Virus record (IMG/VR): IMGVR_UViG_3300047994_000064
Location: 1 to 37,557 of that record
DNA: 37,557 bases
Strand: one strand, 5' to 3'
Origin: a virus
The notes beneath the pieces are model-generated. The model saw only the letters and a list, made by a program, of their open reading frames with translations. It ran no database searches and was not told the origin of the DNA. The number at the start of each line of letters is the position of its first letter. The stretch's first letter is position 1. This document shows positions 1-37,557 of this stretch, piece by piece. A program made the position numbers and the translations under genes.

Positions 1-87
1 GGAGGCGATGGCCCGACGGATAGAGGACTCCGAGACCCCGGTGGCCTCGGCGGCCTCGGGGATCGAGTAGGCGATGCGCGCGGCCAT
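1..87 (-). CDS. Excisionase/AlpA-like HTH protein, N-terminal part (cut by window)
   Basis: Only the first 29 codons are present; the gene runs off the left edge. The visible part (MAARIAYSIPEAAEATG...) has the 'IPEAAEATGVSESSIRRAI' helix-turn-helix seen in MerR/AlpA-type excisionases and DNA-binding regulators. It is identical at DNA level to the start of the 61-residue gene at 36548-36733. Its ATG overlaps the TGA of the XRE-like gene upstream (ATGA), so the two are co-translated. Role inferred: recombination directionality or control of early genes. The family call is good; the exact role is not shown. Confidence 0.7.
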   Translation of the reverse strand, partial: MAARIAYSIPEAAEATGVSESSIRRAIAS

Positions 88-99
88 CAGGCCACGTCC
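1..99. repeat. 99-bp perfect direct repeat, left copy
   Basis: Positions 1-99 are identical base for base to 36647-36745; the first mismatch is at 100 (T versus C). The repeat covers the start of the excisionase-like gene and the last codons of the XRE-like gene. It probably continues beyond the left edge. Beyond 99 the two loci are homologous but diverged, so this is shared ancestry or recent recombination rather than a duplicated sequence end. Confidence 0.95.
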
Positions 100-368
100 T
101 CGGCGCGGCTCGGTGCCGGCACCAGTCGGGGGGTGAAGTAGACGTGCGGCTTGTCGGTGAGGTCGTAGAACTCAGCGAGTGCCGCGGTGAGCTTCGGGCC
201 GGGGCGGTCAGCGCCGATCTCGACGGCGCTGATGGTGCCCTCGGCGTAGCGGCGGCCCGTGATCGCGGCCAGCCCTTCGACGACGTCCATCAGCGTGTAG
301 CCGTGGGCTCTGCGGAGGTGGGCCAGGCCGACGAGCGGCGGGGTGACCCGGCGGGCGGTTGGCTTCAT
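87..368 (-). CDS. Small XRE-like HTH regulator (left copy)
   Basis: This 93-residue protein has the core 'TPPLVGLAHLRRAHGYTLMDV...EGTISAVEIG', a Cro/CI-type helix-turn-helix in which the recognition helix follows 'GTIS'. Its paralogue at 36733-37023 aligns over its whole length (TPPLVGIAHLRRALGYSLEDV...GTISGIELG). I chose the ATG at 368 because the paralogue has an ATG at the matching place. There is no Shine-Dalgarno before it, but a possible promoter (TTGTGC-17 bp-CATAGT, 404-376) would start the transcript at or next to this ATG, so the mRNA may be leaderless. A TTG at 404 would add 12 residues but lies inside that -35 element. It is divergent from the repressor at 535, so it may be the Cro-like arm of the switch (inference). 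Confidence 0.75.
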   Translation of the reverse strand: MKPTARRVTPPLVGLAHLRRAHGYTLMDVVEGLAAITGRRYAEGTISAVEIGADRPGPKLTAALAEFYDLTDKPHVYFTPRLVPAPSRAEDVA

Positions 369-534
369 GTCTGGAACTATGGCCCAAGTCGGCCCTAAGC
401 ACAACCCAAGATGGGCATAACTTGTATCTCCGCAGGTCAGGCGCCCGATTGTCCGCGTGTCGGTCCCGAGTTTCGTACATGTAGTTAGGAAGTTAGGTTT
501 GTCTTAGGTTCCATTCCGGGGAGAGGCTCCAGCC
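369..534. promoter_or_regulatory. Divergent immunity promoter region, left module
   Basis: This gap separates the minus-strand XRE gene from the plus-strand repressor. It holds a candidate minus-strand promoter (TTGTGC at 404-399, 17-bp spacer, CATAGT at 381-376). It also holds the box CCGCAGGTCAG at 430-440, whose near edge is 62 nt from the XRE start. Close to the repressor start are three TTAGG-type direct repeats (GTTAGGA 484-490, GTTAGGT 492-498, CTTAGGT 503-509), which could be operators. A good ribosome-binding site, GGGGAGAGG, is at 518-526. Confidence 0.5.
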
Positions 535-969
535 ATGGCACGCAGGACCACACCGGTCGGCGCACGACTGGCCGGCCTACTCAAGGAGGCGAACCGTGAC
601 GGCCTTCGCTGGAAGGACATCCCGCGCAAGTCGGAGTCCACCATGTCGGCGCTCGCCAACGACCCCGGGCGACGGATGGCCGACGACACCGCGGCAGCGA
701 TCGACGAGGGGATGGGCTGGGCGGCCGGCACCGCGTGGAAGATCGCGGTCGGCGAAATCACCGACCCTGTTCCGCGTGTCGAAACGCCGCCCGGCACTGT
801 CGGTGGTACGCGCCAGGCTCCGGGCATCACCAAGGCGGGCGATCGGGGAGAGGGAGAGTTGGCTGCGAACGAGCGCAAGATTGTGGGGGAGGCGGCGCGC
901 CTGTTGGCCCAGGTGGCCGAGCTGCTGGCGCAGATCGAGACGGGGGCTGACGATGCTGACTCCGACTGA
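535..969 (+). CDS. Probable immunity repressor (left module)
   Basis: This 144-residue DNA-binding-like protein has an N-terminal helical region with 'LRWKDIPRKSESTMSALAN' as the likely HTH, followed by 'AAIDEGMGWAAGTAWKIAVGEI'. The pattern of one helix, then GW..GT/V.., then a hydrophobic strand and G/D is shared with the right-hand protein at 37194 (TYGWPEGVAFRLVDPDE) and is typical of actinophage immunity repressors. The C-terminal 40 residues (ERKIVGEAARLLAQVAELLAQIE) form a leucine-heptad helix suited to dimerisation. The ATG follows GGGGAGAGG at good spacing. It overlaps the DUF3263 gene by 17 nt. The two repressors are strongly diverged, so different immunity specificity is likely (inference). 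Confidence 0.65.
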   Translation: MARRTTPVGARLAGLLKEANRDGLRWKDIPRKSESTMSALANDPGRRMADDTAAAIDEGMGWAAGTAWKIAVGEITDPVPRVETPPGTVGGTRQAPGITKAGDRGEGELAANERKIVGEAARLLAQVAELLAQIETGADDADSD

Positions 970-1192
970 GCACGCGATGCTCGAGCACGCCGGCCTTCGC
1001 TGGCGACGCGCGGGCATCAGCGAGCAGGTCATCCGGGAGCGGTGGGGCGTCTCGGGCACGAGATTCTGGCAGGTCGTCAACGGCCTGCTCGACCGCCCGG
1101 ATGCGCTCGCGGCTCAGCCGATGACCGTGCGGCGCCTTCGTGCGCTGCGCGAGGGTCGGCGCCTGACGAGGTCGTCGCATGCGATTGGCTAA
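953..1192 (+). CDS. DUF3263 family small protein
   Basis: This 79-residue protein closely matches the actinobacterial DUF3263 pattern: 'LRWRRAGISEQVIRERWGVSGTRFWQVVNGLLDRPDALAAQPMTVRRLRALR'. The segment 'IRERWGVSGTRFWQVVNGLL' reads as a helix-turn-helix. The function of the family is unknown; DNA binding is plausible. The ATG at 953 sits inside the 3' end of the repressor gene behind a G-rich site (GGGGG, 942-946), so the two are translationally coupled. A strong hairpin terminator follows. Confidence 0.75.
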   Translation: MLTPTEHAMLEHAGLRWRRAGISEQVIRERWGVSGTRFWQVVNGLLDRPDALAAQPMTVRRLRALREGRRLTRSSHAIG

Positions 1193-1218
1193 GGCGTTGG
1201 CTAAGGCGGGCTGGCATG

Positions 1219-1265
1219 GAGAAGGCCCGCCACCACTCGGTTTCCCTTGTGGTGCGGGCCTTCTC
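1219..1265. terminator. Hairpin terminator after the repressor/DUF3263 operon
   Basis: A near-perfect inverted repeat: left arm GAGAAGGCCCGCCACCAC (1219-1236), right arm GTGGTGCGGGCCTTCTC (1249-1265), with one bulged C. It lacks a clear T tract, as is common in high-GC actinobacteria. It separates the repressor operon from the attachment core and integrase. Confidence 0.8.
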
Positions 1266-1269
1266 ACCA

Positions 1270-1320
1270 GTACGCCGCGTAGGACTTGAACCTACAACCC
1301 GCGGATTAAGAGTCCGCGGA
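1270..1320 (-). other. Attachment core: 3' half of tRNA-Lys(CTT)
   Basis: On the minus strand the sequence has an exact tRNA 3' half: anticodon stem GCGGA, loop CTCTTAA (anticodon CTT, Lys), stem TCCGC, variable loop GGGTT, T-arm GTAGG-TTCAAGT-CCTAC, acceptor strand GCGGCGT and discriminator A. No CCA is encoded. Upstream (1321-1350) there is no matching 5' acceptor (expected ACGCCGC-like) and no proper D-arm, so the gene is not complete. A tRNA 3' half beside a tyrosine integrase is the usual look of a phage att core. The intact tRNA would be expected beyond the right edge of the window. Confidence 0.7.
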
Positions 1321-1355
1321 TACGCTACCCTGGACATGCGCAGAACAGGCCGTTT

Positions 1356-1366
1356 CCGCAGGTCAG
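1356..1366. promoter_or_regulatory. CCGCAGGTCAG box upstream of the integrase
   Basis: The same 11 bases occur at 430-440, and the first 10 at 37085-37094. In all three places the near end of the CCGCAGGTCA core is 62 nt from a start codon (int ATG 1427, XRE ATG 368, XRE ATG 37023). Binding by a phage regulator or by integrase/excisionase is inferred from this. Confidence 0.5.
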
Positions 1367-1426
1367 AGGCTTGCAGCGTCGGTCAAGACTACCCATGAGT
1401 ATCCGTGACTAGGCTAAGGTTTGGCT

Positions 1427-2680
1427 ATGGGCAAGACGACCAGGCGCCAGCGGGGCGAGGGCGCGCTCTACTTCCGCGAGAGCGACTGCATGTGGGTCGG
1501 CTCCGTCGACCTCGGCCACACGCCCGACGGGAAGCGGCGGCGCAAGGTGGTCACCCACTCGACGCAGGCCGGTGCGCTGAAGAAGCTGAACGAGGTCAAG
1601 CGCGCCGTCGGCATCCACGGCGACGTGCCCACCAGGAGCCAGACCCTCGGGGAGTGGCTCGACCGGTGGCTAATGGAGATCGCGCAGCCACGGGTGCGGC
1701 CCCGGACCCTGGACACCTACCGTCACAAGGTCGGCCTCATCAAGGCGGCCATCGGCAGGGTGCGGCTCGACCGGCTGACCCCCGCGCACGTCCGGCAGAT
1801 GCAGGACCACGCAGGCGCCGATGGCCGGTCGAGTACGACCGCGCTACAGGCGCACCGCATCCTGGCGAAGGCGCTCAAGGACGCCGAGCGCGAGGGCCTG
1901 GTCGTGCGCAACGTGGCGACCCTGACCGACGCGCCCCGCAAGGCCGTGAGCACACGCACGGCGCTCTCGGCGGGTGACGCCCGCAGCGTCCTGGTCGGGT
2001 CCGCTGCGGACCCGCTGGCGGCACGGTGGGCGCTGGCGATCCTGTGCGGGGTGCGCCAGGGCGAGGCACTCGGGCTCCGCTGGGAGTACGTCGACCTCGA
2101 CGTGGGCGTGGCCGACCTCGCGTGGCAGCTGCAGCGCCTCACCTGGCGGCACGACTGCGGCGGGACGTGCGGGCGCAAGCGCGGTGCCGAGTGCCCCGAC
2201 CGGTCCCTGATGATCCCGGCGGGGTTCGAGGCCGAGGTGCTGCGCGGCGGGCTGTGCCTGACGCGCCCGAAGTCGGAGGACTCCCGCCGCATCGTCCCGC
2301 TGCCGAGCCTCGTGGTCGACCTGCTCGGACGACACCGGGCCCTGACGGCGCAGCGCCCCAACCCCTTCGGGCTGGTCTGGACGGACGGCGACGGCATGCC
2401 CGTCGACCCGAAGGACGACCGTGCCGCGTGGGGCGCTGCGCTCACCCGCGCCGGCGTCGCACCGGTCGTGCTCCACGCCGCACGCCACACGACGGCGACG
2501 CTGCTGATGAACGGCGGCACCGCCGACACCACCATCCAGTCGATCATGGGCCACTCGGACGTGACGACGACGCAGAAGTACCAGCACGCGGACCTGCGCA
2601 TCGCACGTGAGGCCATCGAGCGCCTCGCGGGGGAGCTGACCGCTACGCTGCCGCCAGTCGATCCTGAGGGGGACGGATGA
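1427..2680 (+). CDS. int: Tyrosine site-specific integrase
   Basis: This 417-residue recombinase integrates and excises the prophage at the att core about 110 bp upstream. An N-terminal arm-binding region is followed by a SAM-like core-binding domain (about 70-165: 'TLGEWLDRWLMEIAQPRVRPRTLDTYRHKV') and the catalytic domain from about 178. The catalytic set is R210 (CGVRQGEALGL), K282 (RPKSEDSRR), H350 and R353 (LHAARH), H376 (IMGHSD) and Y385 (QKYQH), all present. A Cys-containing insert (C244, C248, C256: HDCGGTCGRKRGAEC) is common in actinobacterial phage integrases. The ATG at 1427 follows AAGG at good spacing; an upstream TTG at 1421 is less likely. Its TGA overlaps the ATG of the lipoprotein gene. 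Confidence 0.95.
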   Translation: MGKTTRRQRGEGALYFRESDCMWVGSVDLGHTPDGKRRRKVVTHSTQAGALKKLNEVKRAVGIHGDVPTRSQTLGEWLDRWLMEIAQPRVRPRTLDTYRHKVGLIKAAIGRVRLDRLTPAHVRQMQDHAGADGRSSTTALQAHRILAKALKDAEREGLVVRNVATLTDAPRKAVSTRTALSAGDARSVLVGSAADPLAARWALAILCGVRQGEALGLRWEYVDLDVGVADLAWQLQRLTWRHDCGGTCGRKRGAECPDRSLMIPAGFEAEVLRGGLCLTRPKSEDSRRIVPLPSLVVDLLGRHRALTAQRPNPFGLVWTDGDGMPVDPKDDRAAWGAALTRAGVAPVVLHAARHTTATLLMNGGTADTTIQSIMGHSDVTTTQKYQHADLRIAREAIERLAGELTATLPPVDPEGDG

Positions 2681-3511: not shown

Positions 3512-4782
3512 GGCGCGTCCCCGGCCCAGGTGAGCACGCGCAGCCGGTCCCAGCCGCCGCGGCCCACGGTGAGCGTGAGCAGCCCGGACGGGGCGGCGTC
3601 GCCGGTCTCGCGCGCCCACCACTCGGAGCCGTTGTCGAGCGCCGGCGCCTGCACCCACGTCTTCGCACCGGACTGCACGACGCGGACGTGGTGGTAATGG
3701 CCAGACACGAGCAGGGTTGCCTCCCCGGCGGGGAGCATCCCGTGAGCCTGCCCGGCCCACCACTTCTCGGCGCCACCCTTGCACTGGTGGCCGTGGGCGA
3801 CGGCGACGATGGTACCGCCGAGGTCGACGGTCACCACGTCCTTGTCGACGCCGGGAAAATGCCAGGCGACGTGCCCGAACTTCTCCGGCTGGTCGGCTAG
3901 GCGCTCGCACACGGCGGCGGCGGCGTCGATGTCCCACGAGTCGTGGTGCGCCGTCTCGACCTGCCGCGTCGACTGGTCGTGGTTGCCGCCGACGGCGATG
4001 ACGGACACGGCGGGGGCGACCTTCGCGAACGCCATGACGACGTGGGCGACGATGCGCCGGTAGACGCGGACCATCTCGGTGGGGAACAGGTCTGTGCGGG
4101 CGATGAGCCGGCCACCCTGGGAGACATAGCCCTCGCAGCCATCGCCGGGGAAGATCAGCGCGACCGGCCCGGCCTCGCCGCGCTTGGACAGCGTGCGGTA
4201 CTCGGCCAGCGCCCGGTCGGTCAGCGCGAGGATGCGGGCGACGGTGCGGTCGGTGCCACCGCCGGCGGGCTCCCACTTGCCGATCTGCATGTCGGCGTAG
4301 ACCACGGTGAACGTGTCTGCGGTTTCGCTGACCGCCGGTCGCGGTTTCGCTGACCGCCACCGGTCGATCGCGGCGAGCAGGTCGTCGGCGCTGTTGGCAG
4401 ATTCGGTGGTCTGCTCGACGCGGAAGCGGTAGCGCCATACCGGCTTGGTGACGGCGGGCGCCTGGCGCAGCTGCCCGTCCTTGCCGGGCTCGGGCATGTA
4501 CGGCTCGGGCCGGGTCCATGCCTCCGGGTCGAAGCGGGCCTCGACCAGGACCAGGCGCCAGCCCTCGGGCAGGGTGACGCCCATCGCCTCGACGGCGGTG
4601 CGCCACTCGTCCTCGGTTGACAGATGGTTGACGGCGTCGGTGGTGATCTCCGACGGCTGCCCACCGGCGTAGCGGACGCCGGGCTCGAAGCCCTTAGGCG
4701 CTGCGGTGCGGGTGCGCTTGGGTGCCTTCGGCGTCGGACCCGCTGCGGCGTACTCAGCGGCGAGCGAGTCGCCCAGGCTCAC
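3496..4782 (-). CDS. Metallophosphoesterase (calcineurin-like)
   Basis: This 428-residue protein has the metal-binding motifs of the calcineurin-like phosphoesterase fold in order: YADMQ (D164, Q166), FPGDG (213-215, in place of the usual GDxxD), GGNHD (266-269), AHGH (330-332) and SGHYHH (361-365). The likely activity is metal-dependent phosphomono- or diester hydrolysis; the substrate is unknown. The N-terminal 150 residues are a separate region that begins MSLGDSLAAE, like the protein encoded just upstream (MSLKDALAAE). The ATG overlaps the stop of that gene (4779-4782). An 18-bp repeat at 4319-4336/4341-4358 sits between the two halves. Confidence 0.85.
   Translation of the reverse strand: MSLGDSLAAEYAAAGPTPKAPKRTRTAAPKGFEPGVRYAGGQPSEITTDAVNHLSTEDEWRTAVEAMGVTLPEGWRLVLVEARFDPEAWTRPEPYMPEPGKDGQLRQAPAVTKPVWRYRFRVEQTTESANSADDLLAAIDRWRSAKPRPAVSETADTFTVVYADMQIGKWEPAGGGTDRTVARILALTDRALAEYRTLSKRGEAGPVALIFPGDGCEGYVSQGGRLIARTDLFPTEMVRVYRRIVAHVVMAFAKVAPAVSVIAVGGNHDQSTRQVETAHHDSWDIDAAAAVCERLADQPEKFGHVAWHFPGVDKDVVTVDLGGTIVAVAHGHQCKGGAEKWWAGQAHGMLPAGEATLLVSGHYHHVRVVQSGAKTWVQAPALDNGSEWWARETGDAAPSGLLTLTVGRGGWDRLRVLTWAGDAPCASP
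4319..4358. repeat. 18-bp direct repeat, 22-bp period, inside the phosphoesterase gene
   Basis: GCGGTTTCGCTGACCGCC occurs at 4319-4336 and at 4341-4358. The 22-bp period is not a multiple of three, so the two copies are read in different frames (RSAKPR and AVSETA). It lies at the junction between the N-terminal region and the catalytic domain. Confidence 0.9.
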
Positions 4783-6180: not shown

Positions 6181-8103
6181 TCAGCTGGGGCCGAGCAGGG
6201 AGGTCGAGCCGGCCTTGGTCTTCACGTCGTCGAACTTGTAGGTGCTCACCGCGGACCCGCCCGACCAGCGCCCGAGAGCCAGGCGCGCGATGTTCGACGT
6301 GCCGAAGTTGGCCGAGGCCGCCGTCAGCGACAGGTTGGCGTCGGCGGAGAGGCTGTCGCCGGCGTAGACGTTGAGCACGGCGGCGCCCGCACCGGAGCCG
6401 CCGGCGTTGTCGACGGTGAGCTCCACGCGGTACCAGGTGCCGTTGACCAGGCCGTTGGTCGTCGTCGACAGGGTCGTGCCGGCGGCGTTCTGCAGCGAGA
6501 GCTTGCGCGCGGTGTCGATGAGGATCGCGCACTGGTTCGTGTCGCCCGCGGTGGCGAACGCCGCGATGCGCGTGCCGCCTGTCGGGGTCGAGTCGAGCTT
6601 GAAATAGAACCGTGCGGCGACCAGGCGTGACGGGGAGGTGTCCCAGTAGGCCCGGCGCGTCGTGGTCGATGTGCCGTCGCACTTCATCGACACGGAACCC
6701 TTGAACGAGTCCGCGTCGAAGGTGAAGCCCGAGTCGACGTAGGCGAACGGATCGCCCGAGACGCCGCCGCTGTTGCCGGTGGTCACCGTGACGGTCGCCG
6801 TGCCGCCCTCGAAGGTGCTCTGCTTCACGGTTCCGTCGACGACGGTGACGGTGCTGTCGGCGGTGACCGAGCCGCCGTTGGCGAGCACCTTCGGCGTGCC
6901 TGTCCAGGCGCCGCCGCGAGAGGCGGTGTCCATGTCGCGGATGCGGACCTTCGTCGTGCCGCCGGAGGCGTTGACCAGGTAGACGTCCTCGCTCACGGCG
7001 GCGGCGCGGTCGTAGACGCAGTCGTACATCAGGAAGTTGCCGCCCGTGACGTCGATGACCGCGGTGGGGCTGCCGCCGTTGGCAGGGTCGTACATGGCGT
7101 AGGCGAGCCACGAGTGCGACAGGCTCAGCCGACCGCCCTTGACCTTGATGAGCCCGCCGTAGGCCGGGTAGGTGCTGCCCGCGGAGTAGACCGGGTTCTG
7201 GCCCTCGATGACGGAGTGGCTGATCCAGACCGTGCCGAAGTTGGACGACGACCCGTTGTTGAGGTTCGTCGGGCCGTCGATCTCGACGCCGGACCAGGCG
7301 CCGCGGCAGGTGACGTACAGCCCGGTCACCGGGGTCTTGTCGAGCGACTGCAGGTACAGCGCGACCGGGCGGCCCGCGGAGGGGCAGGAGCCGGTCGGGG
7401 AGTCGACGAGTGCCTGGGTGAACAGCAGCTTCCAGTCCGAGCCGCCGAGGTTGATCGCGCAGTCGGTGCCGTTGGCGATGTCCCAGTTGCCGCGCAGCAC
7501 CCCGGCGGTGCCGAGCAGCTTCGCGGCGTAGGTGCCGCAGACGCCCTTGAGGCCGGACGCGGAGATGTCCTCGAGGTCGAGGCAGTACCAGGTGCCCGAG
7601 CCGGTGTTGCCGAGGACGACCTCGTTGCCGGTCGTGCCCTTGAAGCACATCTGCCCGAGGTAGACCTGGAAGATGCTCGCCGTGGTGGCGGTGAACCAGT
7701 TGCCGTTGAAGTTGAGGTTGACCATGAACGCCTGGTCGGACGCGCCGCCGTTGCGCTCGGGTGCCTGCAGGCCGCGCGTGGGGCCGATCAGGCGCAGGCC
7801 GTTGAACGGCGCCCGGTCCTTCGTGGTGAATGTGTAGGCGCGGTTCGAGAAGGCGATCGCGGGCCGGTAGGACAGTCCCGAGACGTAGGACAGCGCGGCG
7901 GTCAGCTTCGCGTCGTCGTTTGCGCCGGCGAACGAGTCGAGGTAGACGACGCCCTGCATCCCGAACAGGGAAAGCAGGAAGTTGATCGCGGTGGTGATGA
8001 CCCCGAGCGCGGTGTTGAGGATGCCCCCCCAGATGCCGCGGCCGGCCTCGTCGAGCGGGGTCGGGAGCGTCACCGTGATGGGCGTCGCCTGCGGTGCGGG
8101 CAT
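6181..8103 (-). CDS. Tail fibre/spike: beta-helix plus LamG-like domain
   Basis: This 640-residue protein has a short N-terminal region with a hydrophobic segment (LNTALGVITTAINFLLSLFG, about 29-48). A pectate-lyase-type start (VYLDSFAGANDDAKLTAALSYVSG, about 53-76) leads into a Gly/Asn/Thr-rich right-handed beta-helix to about residue 420. The last 190 residues look like a concanavalin/LamG sandwich (FKGSVSMKCDG..., YRVELTVDNAGG..., ARLALGRWSGG). Such proteins bind or degrade cell-surface glycans. It lies at the end of the tail operon and is probably a receptor-binding or depolymerase spike; no catalytic residues could be assigned. Confidence 0.75.
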   Translation of the reverse strand: MPAPQATPITVTLPTPLDEAGRGIWGGILNTALGVITTAINFLLSLFGMQGVVYLDSFAGANDDAKLTAALSYVSGLSYRPAIAFSNRAYTFTTKDRAPFNGLRLIGPTRGLQAPERNGGASDQAFMVNLNFNGNWFTATTASIFQVYLGQMCFKGTTGNEVVLGNTGSGTWYCLDLEDISASGLKGVCGTYAAKLLGTAGVLRGNWDIANGTDCAINLGGSDWKLLFTQALVDSPTGSCPSAGRPVALYLQSLDKTPVTGLYVTCRGAWSGVEIDGPTNLNNGSSSNFGTVWISHSVIEGQNPVYSAGSTYPAYGGLIKVKGGRLSLSHSWLAYAMYDPANGGSPTAVIDVTGGNFLMYDCVYDRAAAVSEDVYLVNASGGTTKVRIRDMDTASRGGAWTGTPKVLANGGSVTADSTVTVVDGTVKQSTFEGGTATVTVTTGNSGGVSGDPFAYVDSGFTFDADSFKGSVSMKCDGTSTTTRRAYWDTSPSRLVAARFYFKLDSTPTGGTRIAAFATAGDTNQCAILIDTARKLSLQNAAGTTLSTTTNGLVNGTWYRVELTVDNAGGSGAGAAVLNVYAGDSLSADANLSLTAASANFGTSNIARLALGRWSGGSAVSTYKFDDVKTKAGSTSLLGPS

Positions 8104-30114: not shown

Positions 30115-30353
30115 GACGCCTGCTCGAGTGGTCGGGGCCGGCGCAGGGTGTCGCGCTCGGCGGGGGTGAGCGCGGCCCACATGCCGTCGGTCTCCGGGGT
30201 GGTGAGGACGTGACGCAGGCAGTCGGCGATGACGGGGCAGCGGACGCAGACGGCGCGGGCGATGCGGTAGGCGCCCTCCTTGTGGAATCCCTCGGGGAAC
30301 CACCAGTACGGGTCGTGGTTGCGGCAGGCGGCGGCGTTCTGCCAGTCGGTCAC
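30111..30353 (-). CDS. WhiB-family Fe-S transcription factor (short)
   Basis: This 80-residue protein has the four conserved cysteines of WhiB proteins, C10, C36, C39 and C45 (VCVRCPVIADC), which hold a [4Fe-4S] cluster. The G-[I/V/M]-W turn follows as GMWAALTPAER (57-67). Phage WhiB proteins can displace host WhiB factors and change host transcription or superinfection. Coupled to the larger WhiB gene by GTGA at 30350-30353. Confidence 0.9.
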   Translation of the reverse strand: MTDWQNAAACRNHDPYWWFPEGFHKEGAYRIARAVCVRCPVIADCLRHVLTTPETDGMWAALTPAERDTLRRPRPLEQAS

Positions 30354-30871
30354 GATGCCTCCCGTTCGCCGGCGCAGTACGCCGTCCAGGCGGCCCGGCA
30401 CGCGGCGCACGTCGCGGTGCCGGTGCGGCGGTGCTGGCGGTAGCCGCGGGCGGTGCCGTGCTCCTCGGGCAGTGCGGTGCGTCCGGTGCGCCCGGGCTGG
30501 GGTGCGCGTCCGGCGCGCGCCGCGTGGTAGTCGACGTTGGCACGCTGGCAGTCGTCGCACGGGTGCTCGTCGTTGGCGCGGTGGCGGATATACGCGGCGC
30601 GAGTGCCGCAGGGCTGCAGCGCGACGTTGAGGCCCAGGTCGGCGCGGATCTTGCGCCGCTCGCCCTGCGTGAGGCCGCCCCATACGCCTTGCAGCGCGGC
30701 GACGTCCTGCTCGAGCGCGTAGGCCCGGCAGTCGTCGATCACGTCGCACTTGGCGCAGATGGCCTTGGCGATGCGGGCCGGGTGACCCTTCTCCGGGAAG
30801 AACAGCTCCGGATCGGTCTGGGCGCACAGGGCGCCGGCGACCCAGGCTGGTGGGATCTCGGCGAGGGTCAT
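30350..30871 (-). CDS. WhiB-family protein with zinc-knuckle repeats
   Basis: This 173-residue protein has a WhiB domain in 1-80 (C16, C39, C42, C48 and GVWGGLTQGER at 62-72). The extra C-terminal 90 residues hold two related units of the form (C/H)GT.xAYxxHR...C-x2-C (88-113 with C105/C108; 138-165 with C155/C158). The second part is basic and may bind DNA. The ATG at 30871 is chosen because it overlaps the upstream stop (ATGA). Confidence 0.85.
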   Translation of the reverse strand: MTLAEIPPAWVAGALCAQTDPELFFPEKGHPARIAKAICAKCDVIDDCRAYALEQDVAALQGVWGGLTQGERRKIRADLGLNVALQPCGTRAAYIRHRANDEHPCDDCQRANVDYHAARAGRAPQPGRTGRTALPEEHGTARGYRQHRRTGTATCAACRAAWTAYCAGEREAS

Positions 30872-31185
30872 CGCGGTCCCACCCACTGCCAGTGCCTCGC
30901 GGGCCGTCCGGCGTTGCCGCTGGCCCTGTCGTCGTTGGTGCCGATCCAGCCGAGCGAGCGCAGGACACCGCGGCGCGCGAGGGCGCTGTACGTCGCGGAG
31001 AGGGCCTGCGGGTGGACGGTGAGCCCGTGGTCGTTGGACAGCGCGTCGCGGACCCGGTTGGGGTCCACGACGCCGTCGTGGGCCTGGGCGTCGGTGAGGA
31101 TCGCGGCGGTGATCGCACGCCGGTCGCGGTCGGCGATCGGGTGCGGGTTCTCCGCTATGGCGAGGAGGTCGAGCTGCGTGGTCAT
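30868..31185 (-). CDS. Winged-helix-like protein
   Basis: This 105-residue protein contains 'ITAAILTDAQAHDGVVDPNRVRDALSNDHGLTVHPQALSATYSALARRGVLRSLGWIGTND', the layout of a winged-helix DNA-binding fold, and ends GRPARHWQWVGPR. Such proteins are frequent in actinophage early regions. Role unknown. Confidence 0.6.
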   Translation of the reverse strand: MTTQLDLLAIAENPHPIADRDRRAITAAILTDAQAHDGVVDPNRVRDALSNDHGLTVHPQALSATYSALARRGVLRSLGWIGTNDDRASGNAGRPARHWQWVGPR

Positions 31186-32621: not shown

Positions 32622-33628
32622 GACTCGTCTCCGAACAGGTCGGCCTGCTCGTGTGCGCCGAGGCAGGAGGGTGAGAGCCAGAGGCGTTCGCGGCGTCCGT
32701 TGTCGGCGCGGGTTGAGTACCCGGCGCCACTCCCGGCCTTGCCCGCGGTGACGGTCCAGCCGAGCGCCAGGAGGTCGTCGTGTTCGGCGTCGTACCCGGC
32801 GAGGATGATCCGCATGGCGGGGTCGGATTCGGTGGCGCACCATTCGCGGACGGTGGCGCTGACGGTGCTGTCGCCGTGGGCGTACAGGTCGCCACTGGTC
32901 GCGTAGGGCGGGTCGAGGAACAGTGCGCGCGTACCATCTCCACCGGCGCCGCTGCGGGTGACTGAGGGTTGGCAGACGCGCCGCCAGTCGCCGCAGGTGA
33001 TGCGGACGCGTCGGAGGCGGTCGGCTAGGCGGTTGAGGTAGTCGACGAGTCCTTGTCCCGCGTTGCCGAGGTGGGGCAGTTCCCGGTTCACGCCTCGTCC
33101 CGCGGTGCCGAGGTGGGGCAGTTTCCGGTTCACGCCTCGTCCCGCGGTGCCGAGGTGGGGCAGTTTCCTCGTGTCAACCAGGCGGTCGTCAAGCACACGC
33201 CACGGACCCGAACCGAATGGGTCACCGATGCCGCACGCCAGGACGTACAGCCACCACCCGGCGGCCTTCGCGTCATGCGCCTCCGGGTGGCCCTCAAGCC
33301 ATGACACGAGCCCGTCGTTGCGGCGCTCGTTCAGCCACGCCAGCCGGGCGTGGTAGTCGATCTCCGTCACGGGTCCATAGGCGTGCTCAGAGACCCTGCC
33401 GGGGCTGAGCTGAATGGCGCGCCAGGCGTTCACGAGCCATCCGTCGGCGTCGTTCAGCGTCTCGACGCGGCGACCCTTGAACGCTGGTCGGGCGAGCAGG
33501 ACGGCTGCGGACCCGGCGAACGGCTCGACGTAGCCAGACGGATCACCGAGGCGGTCCCACACGATGCTGGCGGCGCGACGCTTGCCGCCAAAGTACGGGA
33601 ACGGTGCCGCGGGCGTCGCGGCGGTCAC
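32618..33628 (-). CDS. D12-class DNA adenine methyltransferase with internal repeats
   Basis: This 336-residue protein has D12-class N6-adenine methyltransferase motifs in order: PYFGGK (11-16), YVEPFAGS (33-40, SAM binding) and LDPPYA (238-243, catalytic). Between them, at 154-195, is a 14-residue unit repeated three times, RKLPHLGTAGRGVN twice and RELPHLGNAGQGLV once. These fall near the target-recognition region. It methylates phage DNA, probably as anti-restriction. The ATG at 33628 is the first gene after a short membrane group. Confidence 0.85.
   Translation of the reverse strand: MTAATPAAPFPYFGGKRRAASIVWDRLGDPSGYVEPFAGSAAVLLARPAFKGRRVETLNDADGWLVNAWRAIQLSPGRVSEHAYGPVTEIDYHARLAWLNERRNDGLVSWLEGHPEAHDAKAAGWWLYVLACGIGDPFGSGPWRVLDDRLVDTRKLPHLGTAGRGVNRKLPHLGTAGRGVNRELPHLGNAGQGLVDYLNRLADRLRRVRITCGDWRRVCQPSVTRSGAGGDGTRALFLDPPYATSGDLYAHGDSTVSATVREWCATESDPAMRIILAGYDAEHDDLLALGWTVTAGKAGSGAGYSTRADNGRRERLWLSPSCLGAHEQADLFGDES
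33051..33168. repeat. 42-bp tandem repeat inside the D12 methyltransferase gene
   Basis: A 42-bp unit starting TGCCGAGGTGGGGCAGTT occurs at 33064, 33106 and 33148, with a partial copy before the first (from 33051). Copies differ by a few bases. The period equals 14 codons, so copy-number changes would keep the frame. Confidence 0.9.
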
Positions 33629-35309: not shown

Positions 35310-35575
35310 GCCCCCACCACCGCGACCGGCCACCAGGATGCCGCGACGGGCACGTCGTCGATGCGCCCCGTGACGAACAGGTGCGACCCGTTCGCCCCGG
35401 TGACCTCGGCGACGGCGTTGACGGCCATCGCCCAGGCGACGGTGGTGGCGTTGCGGGCCGGGTAGACCTTGATGCCGTCGGCGTCGAGCTCGATGCGGAC
35501 GTCGGCGGAGACGCCGGCGTTGCCGAGGGCGCGGACGACGAGGGCGGCTGCGGTGTAGACCGCGGCGAGGCTCAT
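35306..35575 (-). CDS. Hypothetical protein upstream of RecT
   Basis: This 89-residue protein starts MSLAAVYTAAALVVRALGNAGVSADVRIELDADGIKVYPARNA, followed by a beta-rich part ending in hydrophobic VAASWWPVAVVGA. It resembles small alpha/beta proteins encoded beside actinophage recT. Function unknown. Confidence 0.6.
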   Translation of the reverse strand: MSLAAVYTAAALVVRALGNAGVSADVRIELDADGIKVYPARNATTVAWAMAVNAVAEVTGANGSHLFVTGRIDDVPVAASWWPVAVVGA

Positions 35576-36024
35576 CGGACCACCGCCGGGATCTGCCGCG
35601 GGAAGCGCGACTCGACCTCGAACCGGTCGACGCGCAGCAGCTTCGGCCCAACGCGGTAGGCGACCAGCGTGCCGTCCGCGACACGGCGACGCAGTGTCTT
35701 GGTGGACACGCCGAGCATCGACGCCGCGTCCTGCAGACTGATCAGGTCCTTCGCGCCACCACTGCGGCCGACGACGCCGGGCATGCGGCGGGGCGCCGTG
35801 GGACGGCCCGCGCGGTTGAACACCGGAGCCTCATCGCGGATGGCGGCCCGCTCTGCGCTCGCCGCCGCACCACGCGAGTCGAAGGTCTCCACCTCGACGC
35901 GGACGACCTGCGAGAACCAGTGCTTGTCGGCGTGCTGGGAGAACCGCTTGCGCGTGTCCTTGGTGATGCCGACGTAGAGCAGCGCGCCGCCCTCGTCGAA
36001 CATCCGGTACAGGGTGGTCGCCAC
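35572..36024 (-). CDS. GIY-YIG nuclease domain fused to excisionase-type HTH
   Basis: In this 150-residue protein, residues 5-72 form a GIY-YIG nuclease: LYR (5-7) and YVGIT (17-21) stand for GIY-YIG, R25/R27, E59 and N70 fill the remaining sites, and 'TRKRFSQHA' is the typical helix. Residues 95-140 ('ISLQDAASMLGVSTKTLRRRVADGTLVAYRVGPKLLRVDRFEVESRF') are an AlpA/MerR-type helix-turn-helix. It could be a site-directed nuclease or a repurposed DNA-binding protein. The GTG at 36024 touches the upstream stop (TAGTG); a GTG at 36033 would add three residues. Confidence 0.75.
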   Translation of the reverse strand: MATTLYRMFDEGGALLYVGITKDTRKRFSQHADKHWFSQVVRVEVETFDSRGAAASAERAAIRDEAPVFNRAGRPTAPRRMPGVVGRSGGAKDLISLQDAASMLGVSTKTLRRRVADGTLVAYRVGPKLLRVDRFEVESRFPRQIPAVVR

Positions 36025-36290
36025 TACGACCACCGCCCGGCGCGCAGCTGCTCGCGCATCTCGGCGTCACGGTCCCGGCGCGCCCACACGGCGGCACGGC
36101 GGCGGCGCTGCGCGTCGAGGTCATGCGCGGCGGCCAGGTGCCACGTCATCGTGGCGACGCAGCCGAACGCGACCAGGCCGACGAGCGGGCCGGACTGCGA
36201 CCACGCGGAGCCCGCCAGGATGATGCCGACGGCGACAGCGAGCAGCTCCGGCCAGGTGAGGGCCTTGAGTGCCCGGATCGTGGAGGACAT
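36024..36290 (-). CDS. Membrane protein with basic tail
   Basis: In this 88-residue protein, two hydrophobic segments (about 13-30 and 34-52: LLAVAVGIILAGSAW, LVGLVAFGCVATMTWHLA) are followed by a basic helix (LDAQRRRRAAVWARRDRDAEMREQLRAG). The ATG at 36290 has AAGGAG at good spacing and a long 5' region with stacked hairpins, so it is the first gene of its operon. Confidence 0.65.
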   Translation of the reverse strand: MSSTIRALKALTWPELLAVAVGIILAGSAWSQSGPLVGLVAFGCVATMTWHLAAAHDLDAQRRRRAAVWARRDRDAEMREQLRAGRWS

Positions 36291-36404: not shown

Positions 36405-36551
36405 TCAGGGGGCTTCGTCGAGCCCGTGGGAGGCCAGCAGGTGCGCGGCCAGGTCGGCGAAGGGGACCGCGACAGCGCACTCGGGGCAGGCCGTGGTGGC
36501 GTAGGCCGGTTCGAGGAACTCGGCGTCGAGGGAGCCGCCGGGCTGCGTCAT
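36405..36551 (-). CDS. 48-residue C2H2-like zinc-finger protein
   Basis: The protein starts MTQPGGSLDAEFLEPAYATT and has the zinc-finger pattern C-P-E-C (22-25), then H (about 37), then H (about 42). It is coupled by ATGA to the excisionase-like gene. It is followed by a strong hairpin. Confidence 0.6.
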   Translation of the reverse strand: MTQPGGSLDAEFLEPAYATTACPECAVAVPFADLAAHLLASHGLDEAP

Positions 36552-36733
36552 GACGCACGCTCCGTGGGGGCGTTGGCGATCCATGCCACGAGCACGTCGT
36601 AGGCGATGACCGGCTTCGACGTGGGGTACGAGGCGATGAGGTCGCCGGAGGCGATGGCCCGACGGATAGAGGACTCCGAGACCCCGGTGGCCTCGGCGGC
36701 CTCGGGGATCGAGTAGGCGATGCGCGCGGCCAT
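36548..36733 (-). CDS. Excisionase/AlpA-like HTH protein
   Basis: This 61-residue protein, MAARIAYSIPEAAEATG then VSESSIRRAIASGDLIASYPTSKPVIAYDVLVAWIANAP, matches HTH_17/excisionase-type domains with a wing (SKPVIAYDVLVAWI). It is the complete version of the gene cut at the left edge. It could direct excision or regulate early genes. Its stop overlaps the zinc-finger gene start (ATGA), and its ATG overlaps the XRE stop. Confidence 0.8.
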   Translation of the reverse strand: MAARIAYSIPEAAEATGVSESSIRRAIASGDLIASYPTSKPVIAYDVLVAWIANAPTERAS

Positions 36734-36745
36734 CAGGCCACGTCC
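36647..36745. repeat. 99-bp perfect direct repeat, right copy
   Basis: Identical to positions 1-99. It spans the first 29 codons of the excisionase-like gene and the last codons of the XRE gene. Confidence 0.95.
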
Positions 36746-37023
36746 CGATTCGGGGACGGCACCAGGCGCGGTCGGGGGTAGACGTGCAGCGAGGCGTCCG
36801 GGTCGAGCTCATAGAGCGCCAGGAGGGCGGCCATGAGGTTGTCGCTGGCCCGGCGGTGGCCGAGCTCGATGCCGGAGATGGTCCCCGGCTCCGGTCGGCG
36901 GTGACCGAGGGCGTGGATGCCGTCGCACACGTCCTCGAGTGAGTAGCCCAGAGCGCGGCGCAGGTGGGCGATCCCGACGAGTGGGGGAGTGACACTGCCA
37001 CCCCGTGGGTTGCGGTTGCTCAT
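36733..37023 (-). CDS. Small XRE-like HTH regulator (right copy)
   Basis: This 96-residue protein starts MSNRNPRGGSVTPPLVG and contains 'LGYSLEDVCDGIHALGHRRPEPGTISGIELG', the same fold as the protein at 87-368. The ATG at 37023 is chosen because it lines up with the left copy. No Shine-Dalgarno is seen, but TTGCGT-18 bp-CAGACT upstream would start the transcript about at this ATG, so it may be leaderless like the left one. A perfect 7-bp palindrome (GCGGCAG-T-CTGCCGC, 37025-37039) overlaps the start and may be an operator. Confidence 0.75.
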   Translation of the reverse strand: MSNRNPRGGSVTPPLVGIAHLRRALGYSLEDVCDGIHALGHRRPEPGTISGIELGHRRASDNLMAALLALYELDPDASLHVYPRPRLVPSPNRDVA

Positions 37024-37193
37024 GGCGGCAGTCTGCCGCAAAGAGCCGCCAATACGCAAGCAAACAGGGCCACGAGGGGCTAAGCCGCAGGTCACGCGGC
37101 GTGTCGGGGTCCGCCGTTGGCGGCTATTCGAACGTCTTACACGGCGCGTATTTGCAAACTCGGGGTTGGGTTTGCGGCTACTGTGCGAGCATC
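37024..37193. promoter_or_regulatory. Divergent immunity promoter region, right module
   Basis: The region between the XRE gene and the repressor-like gene holds a palindrome at 37025-37039, the CCGCAGGTCA box at 37085-37094 (near edge 62 nt from the XRE start), CCGCC-GTT-GGCGG at 37111-37123, and two TTTGC units 20 bp apart (37151, 37171). These are candidate operators. Confidence 0.5.
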
Positions 37194-37557
37194 GTGAACC
37201 CCGTGAAGCCGACCGAAGAGTTGTTCGAGGCGGTCGGCGTGTGCGACGGCATCGACCGTCGCTCGATTCCGGGGAGGACGCGTGCAGAGGTTCAGAACGC
37301 CGGCGGCCCGTCGAGCGCCACCATCAAGAAGCTGCTCAACCGGACCCATGGGCAGGTGAGCGAGAAGGTGCTCGCGCAGCTGGAGGCCACCTACGGATGG
37401 CCCGAGGGGGTGGCCTTCCGACTCGTGGACCCGGACGAGTCGTTGCGGCGTGGCGCCTTGACAGAGGTCAGTGTCGGACCCCACCGACATGCTCTGCCTC
37501 GCGGGCGAGGGTCCCGCCGGGGGAAGGCAAGCGACGTGCAACTACAGGCTATGGACC
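37194..37557 (+). CDS. Probable immunity repressor (right module), cut by window
   Basis: The first 121 codons are present. The protein starts at GTG (VNPVKPTEELFEAVG) and contains 'IDRRSIPGRTRAEVQNAGGPSSATIKKLLN' as the likely HTH and 'LEATYGWPEGVAFRLVDPDE', which matches the GW..G pattern of the left repressor. Overall identity to the left protein is low. It is divergent from the XRE gene, as in the left module. It probably maintains lysogeny of this prophage. Confidence 0.6.
   Translation, partial: MNPVKPTEELFEAVGVCDGIDRRSIPGRTRAEVQNAGGPSSATIKKLLNRTHGQVSEKVLAQLEATYGWPEGVAFRLVDPDESLRRGALTEVSVGPHRHALPRGRGSRRGKASDVQLQAMD

Follow-up and report, generated by a model that had tools for sequence, protein, structure and literature searches.

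Two diverged immunity cassettes in one phage contig probably reflect two alleles of a temperate phage joined by assembly

The question raised by the left end of this virus contig is whether two prophages meet there head to tail, or whether the immunity genes, attachment core and integrase of positions 1-2680 belong to one temperate phage. The window, which is the whole stretch of DNA analysed in this study, is the entire IMG/VR record IMGVR_UViG_3300047994_000064 (37,557 bases). Its left end (1-2680) carries a partial xis (-), XRE (-), repressor (+), DUF3263 (+), a tRNA-Lys-like att core and int (+); after int, one phage genome is followed by a second xis/XRE/repressor set at 36548-37557. This gene order, given for both ends in a preliminary description, was borne out by the gene calls, by family matches (PHROG, Pfam) and by an Rfam match. 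The features are as follows:

1-87, minus strand: xis, first codons, truncated where the contig begins; same sequence as the beginning of the xis ORF at 36548-36733
1-99: left copy of a 99-base direct repeat, an exact copy of 36647-36745; probable k-mer overlap at an assembly-graph branch
87-371, minus strand: XRE/Cro-like HTH protein, allele A (phrog_6463, E 2e-14)
372-534: divergent control region A, with imperfect, weak and short repeats that are possible operators
535-969, plus strand: putative immunity repressor, allele A, named from position and divergent arrangement
953-1192, plus strand: DUF3263 protein (Pfam PF11662, E 7e-23; phrog_5316, E 8e-22)
1219-1265: long hairpin, read by eye
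1271-1327, minus strand: att core, likely attP, the 3' half of a tRNA-Lys(CTT)-like gene (Rfam tRNA, 1279-1327)
1427-2680, plus strand: tyrosine integrase (phrog_1, E 1e-60; Pfam PF00589, E 1e-14; 68% identical to the integrase of locus L003 in the relative G001)
3496-36323, mostly minus strand: phage backbone
36548-36733, minus strand: xis-like HTH protein, complete (phrog_66, E 6e-6)
36647-36745: inner copy of the 99-base direct repeat, the presumed branch point
36733-37023, minus strand: XRE/Cro-like HTH protein, allele B (phrog_6463, E 4e-17)
37024-37193: divergent control region B, with weak repeats that differ from those of region A
37194-37557, plus strand: putative immunity repressor, allele B, truncated at the right end of the contig (ORF 37194-37556 open to the end; phrog_6288, E 4e-6)

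The backbone runs in the order early genes (RecT, GIY-YIG/HTH, methyltransferase, WhiB-like), terminase, portal, major head protein, tape measure, tail proteins and exonuclease. Several further observations were made there. One gene (35572-36033, -) encodes a GIY-YIG endonuclease domain fused with an HTH domain of the excisionase-like kind, the early region includes a gene for a WhiB-like regulator of 178 aa (30350-30886), and a short direct repeat, 25 bases or more in length, stands at 33102 and 33144 with a spacing of 42 bases. ARAGORN called a tRNA-Ala (cgc) at 4291-4365 (+), within the exonuclease gene of the minus strand; no Rfam match there reached the gathering score, and it is probably a false call.

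The best explanation, which we regard as likely, is that positions 1-2680 are the ordinary attP region of one temperate phage and that two of its immunity alleles were joined by assembly. In the circular (or virion) arrangement, such a phage would carry leftward xis and XRE genes, a rightward repressor and DUF3263 gene, attP (the tRNA-Lys 3' half) and int. At least two forms of the immunity cassette, A and B, would have been present in the sample, each joined to identical xis sequence. Starting from the branch k-mer into cassette A, the assembler would then have made one lap of the circle and run off into cassette B, which would leave two immunity sets in the contig. From the sequence, we infer that A and B lie on different molecules.

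The left end of the window is an exact 99-base overlap with the contig's own interior, a feature absent from the preliminary description, and the tandem prophage junction proposed there was not supported. From base 100 onward the copies differ, and to the left of the point at which A and B diverge there is 1-99 alone, identical to the window's own phage. By comparison, the prefixes of eight other complete IMG/VR contigs recurred over 6-9 bases only. Contigs that metaSPAdes and MEGAHIT broke at branches have been reported to end in sequences as long as maxK, a value set to 99 in COBRA simulations (PMC10914622). Here, the assembler and its k were deduced from the length of the repeat, and base 1 is most simply read as a branch node from which the common xis sequence continues into either cassette A or cassette B. 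Moreover, the overlap of 1-99 with 36647-36745 closes the map, so that 1-36646 forms a circle of approximately 36.6 kb.

A toy de Bruijn graph (K = 99) was built from the circle of window 1-36646 and a fragment carrying cassette B, which this model assumes to be a dead end. The graph gave exactly two unitigs, 1-36745 and 36647-37557, and these, when joined, reproduced the window letter for letter. A tandem model and a model in which B rejoins at att each needed one additional resolved junction. The repeat favours the circle without proving it, because the tandem model likewise yielded a unitig beginning at base 1; a genuine tandem whose early regions were identical over more than 99 bases would also begin the contig at this k-mer.

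The two immunity sets had been described as homologous but diverged in their XRE and repressor genes, and this description stood. The XRE proteins A and B shared 51% identity over 96 aa (E 4e-26). The products in the repressor position are nearly unrelated, with a marginal alignment that scored 49 (shuffles: mean 31, max 45), and the gene of set A (535-969) had no family match in the PHROG or Pfam scans. Since the sets are homologous but diverged, and the weak repeats of their control regions are also unlike, it is plausible that A and B differ in a putative immunity specificity. No relatives of 1-1427 were found among phages in the DNA search, and viral contigs yielded neither relatives of XRE B or of repressor A nor the exact xis segment, although near-identical records may have been absent from that collection.

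The att core that had been placed between the repressor side and int was recovered as a tRNA-Lys-like sequence. Its Rfam tRNA match (1279-1327, -) was partial and reached 22.3 bits against a gathering score of 29; the anticodon CTT was read off the sequence, and no whole tRNA-Lys was found anywhere in the window. The same scan also gave miRNA, CRISPR and plastid matches, which fell far short of their gathering scores and were disregarded. A similar tRNA-Lys-like core occupies the equivalent place in the G001 locus L003 (4115-4162), and the core of the window likely functions as attP. It is the one att core seen in the window; the second unit, cassette B, ends before any att site. Furthermore, the contig passes across att from the immunity genes into int, as in a circular temperate phage genome with attP between them. 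Integration-dependent immunity, in which attP lies inside the repressor gene, was considered and rejected, as the repressor-position gene A ends at 969 and the core starts at about 1271. The terminator reported beside the core was not confirmed: the hairpin at 1219-1265 is a good one, but it has no T run, and a terminator scan found none.

The integrase had a single distant match (24%) in genome contigs. A search with two integrases gave further loci that, G001 apart, were 25-43% identical. Five records with these integrase relatives yielded neither DUF3263 nor XRE B, which is an uninformative negative.

The nearest relative, G001 (IMG/VR record IMGVR_UViG_3300022745_000043), resembles the window in its integrase, in the tRNA-Lys-like att core just upstream of int, in the xis/XRE/repressor order, in a repeat of k-mer length at the contig start and in running through more than one lap. 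It differs in a genome unit of approximately 42 kb and in a second lap with another integrase and a tmRNA-like att core, and its backbone is largely unrelated to that of the window in DNA. The corresponding gene order in G001 is xis (-), XRE (-), repressor (+), an IrrE-like gene, an ion-channel-like gene, the tRNA-Lys-like core and int (+); these names, the integrase excepted, were read from translations. In reversed coordinates, the first 127 bases of G001 exactly duplicate its own 41899-42025. Its early sequence 1-1687 recurs at 41899-44722 with 76-94% identity, and the sequence after int (6221-6944) recurs at 48340-50243 with 92-94% identity, which gives a period of approximately 42 kb. Between these second copies lie another XRE gene, an IrrE-family peptidase gene and a different tyrosine integrase (-), which adjoins a weak match to a tmRNA 3' end (14.1 bits, E 0.002, below the gathering score). 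Stacking at one site would not be expected to give a prophage flanked by a tRNA-Lys att at one end and a tmRNA att at the other. G001 more plausibly represents a path that leaves one phage variant and enters a second, or else a recombinant. In the G001 loci L003 (1-6944) and L024 (1-9226), one phage family appears to combine a similar backbone with either of two integration modules, one of a tyrosine integrase with a tRNA-Lys-like core and the other of a different tyrosine integrase with a tmRNA-like core.

In the window, a common backbone seems to carry alternative immunity cassettes, and in G001 a common backbone seems to carry alternative integration modules. A contig that runs past one phage lap into another allele mimics a tandem prophage junction, which calls for caution; the giveaway of such contigs is an exact repeat of k-mer length (99 and 127 here) at the contig start.

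Next to the joining of alleles of one phage, the reading that survives best is that two related prophages with different immunity are arranged head to tail at a single tRNA-Lys site, with 1-1268 as the first prophage's right end and the remainder as the second prophage; we consider it improbable. The gene order, the att core at the supposed junction and the divergence of the two immunity sets fit it, and there is precedent in Mycobacterium abscessus T36, T38 and T48, which carry two different prophages at attB-2 (PMC9934374). The same work terms tandem prophages unusual (PMC9934374). However, the gene order is explained without a second prophage: the assignment of 1-1268 to the end of another prophage is needless, because immunity genes beside att and int are normal in a non-integrated phage, and cro, repressor, DUF3263-like and int genes adjoin within the single virion genomes of Lton and Kuwabara. 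The end overlap would also imply that the supposed first prophage has the window's own xis region exactly, and an assembler that passed through the common stretch into B should, judging from the toy graph, usually have extended A leftward too. In addition, G001 laps likewise but with two different, incompatible integrase/att modules, which speaks against the earlier claim of a tandem at one tRNA-Lys site. Equally unlikely is the corresponding picture in nature, that heteroimmune phages with a near-identical early region lie head to tail at one tRNA-Lys gene of an uncultured bacterium, probably an actinobacterium; if true, it would be another case of the already known heteroimmune double lysogeny at one tRNA gene.

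A single molecule with two immunity cassettes, either a dimer formed by homologous recombination of related phages or a duplicated and diverged cassette, is very improbable: G001 too exceeds one lap with diverged copies, and recombination between related phages is among the routes given in PMC9934374, but the annotated isolate regions examined held one such cassette each, and the exact 99- or 127-base copies at both contig starts would be left unexplained.

Among isolated phages, the Gordonia phages Lton and Kuwabara share with the window the leftward cro and early genes and the rightward repressor and DUF3263-like HTH gene followed by a tyrosine integrase. In both, Cro (-), repressor (+), DUF3263-like HTH (+) and the tyrosine integrase are contiguous in one virion genome, in which the cassette occurs once. 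They differ from the window in that int runs in the opposite direction in both, and protein identities to the window are low (50-53% for DUF3263). Among known tandem prophages, prophiT36-2a/2b of M. abscessus are two different prophages at one tRNA attB (PMC9934374), as in the tandem reading of the window. These prophages lie in a bacterial chromosome and have attP inside the repressor gene, whereas the window has no host DNA and its likely attP lies outside the repressor.
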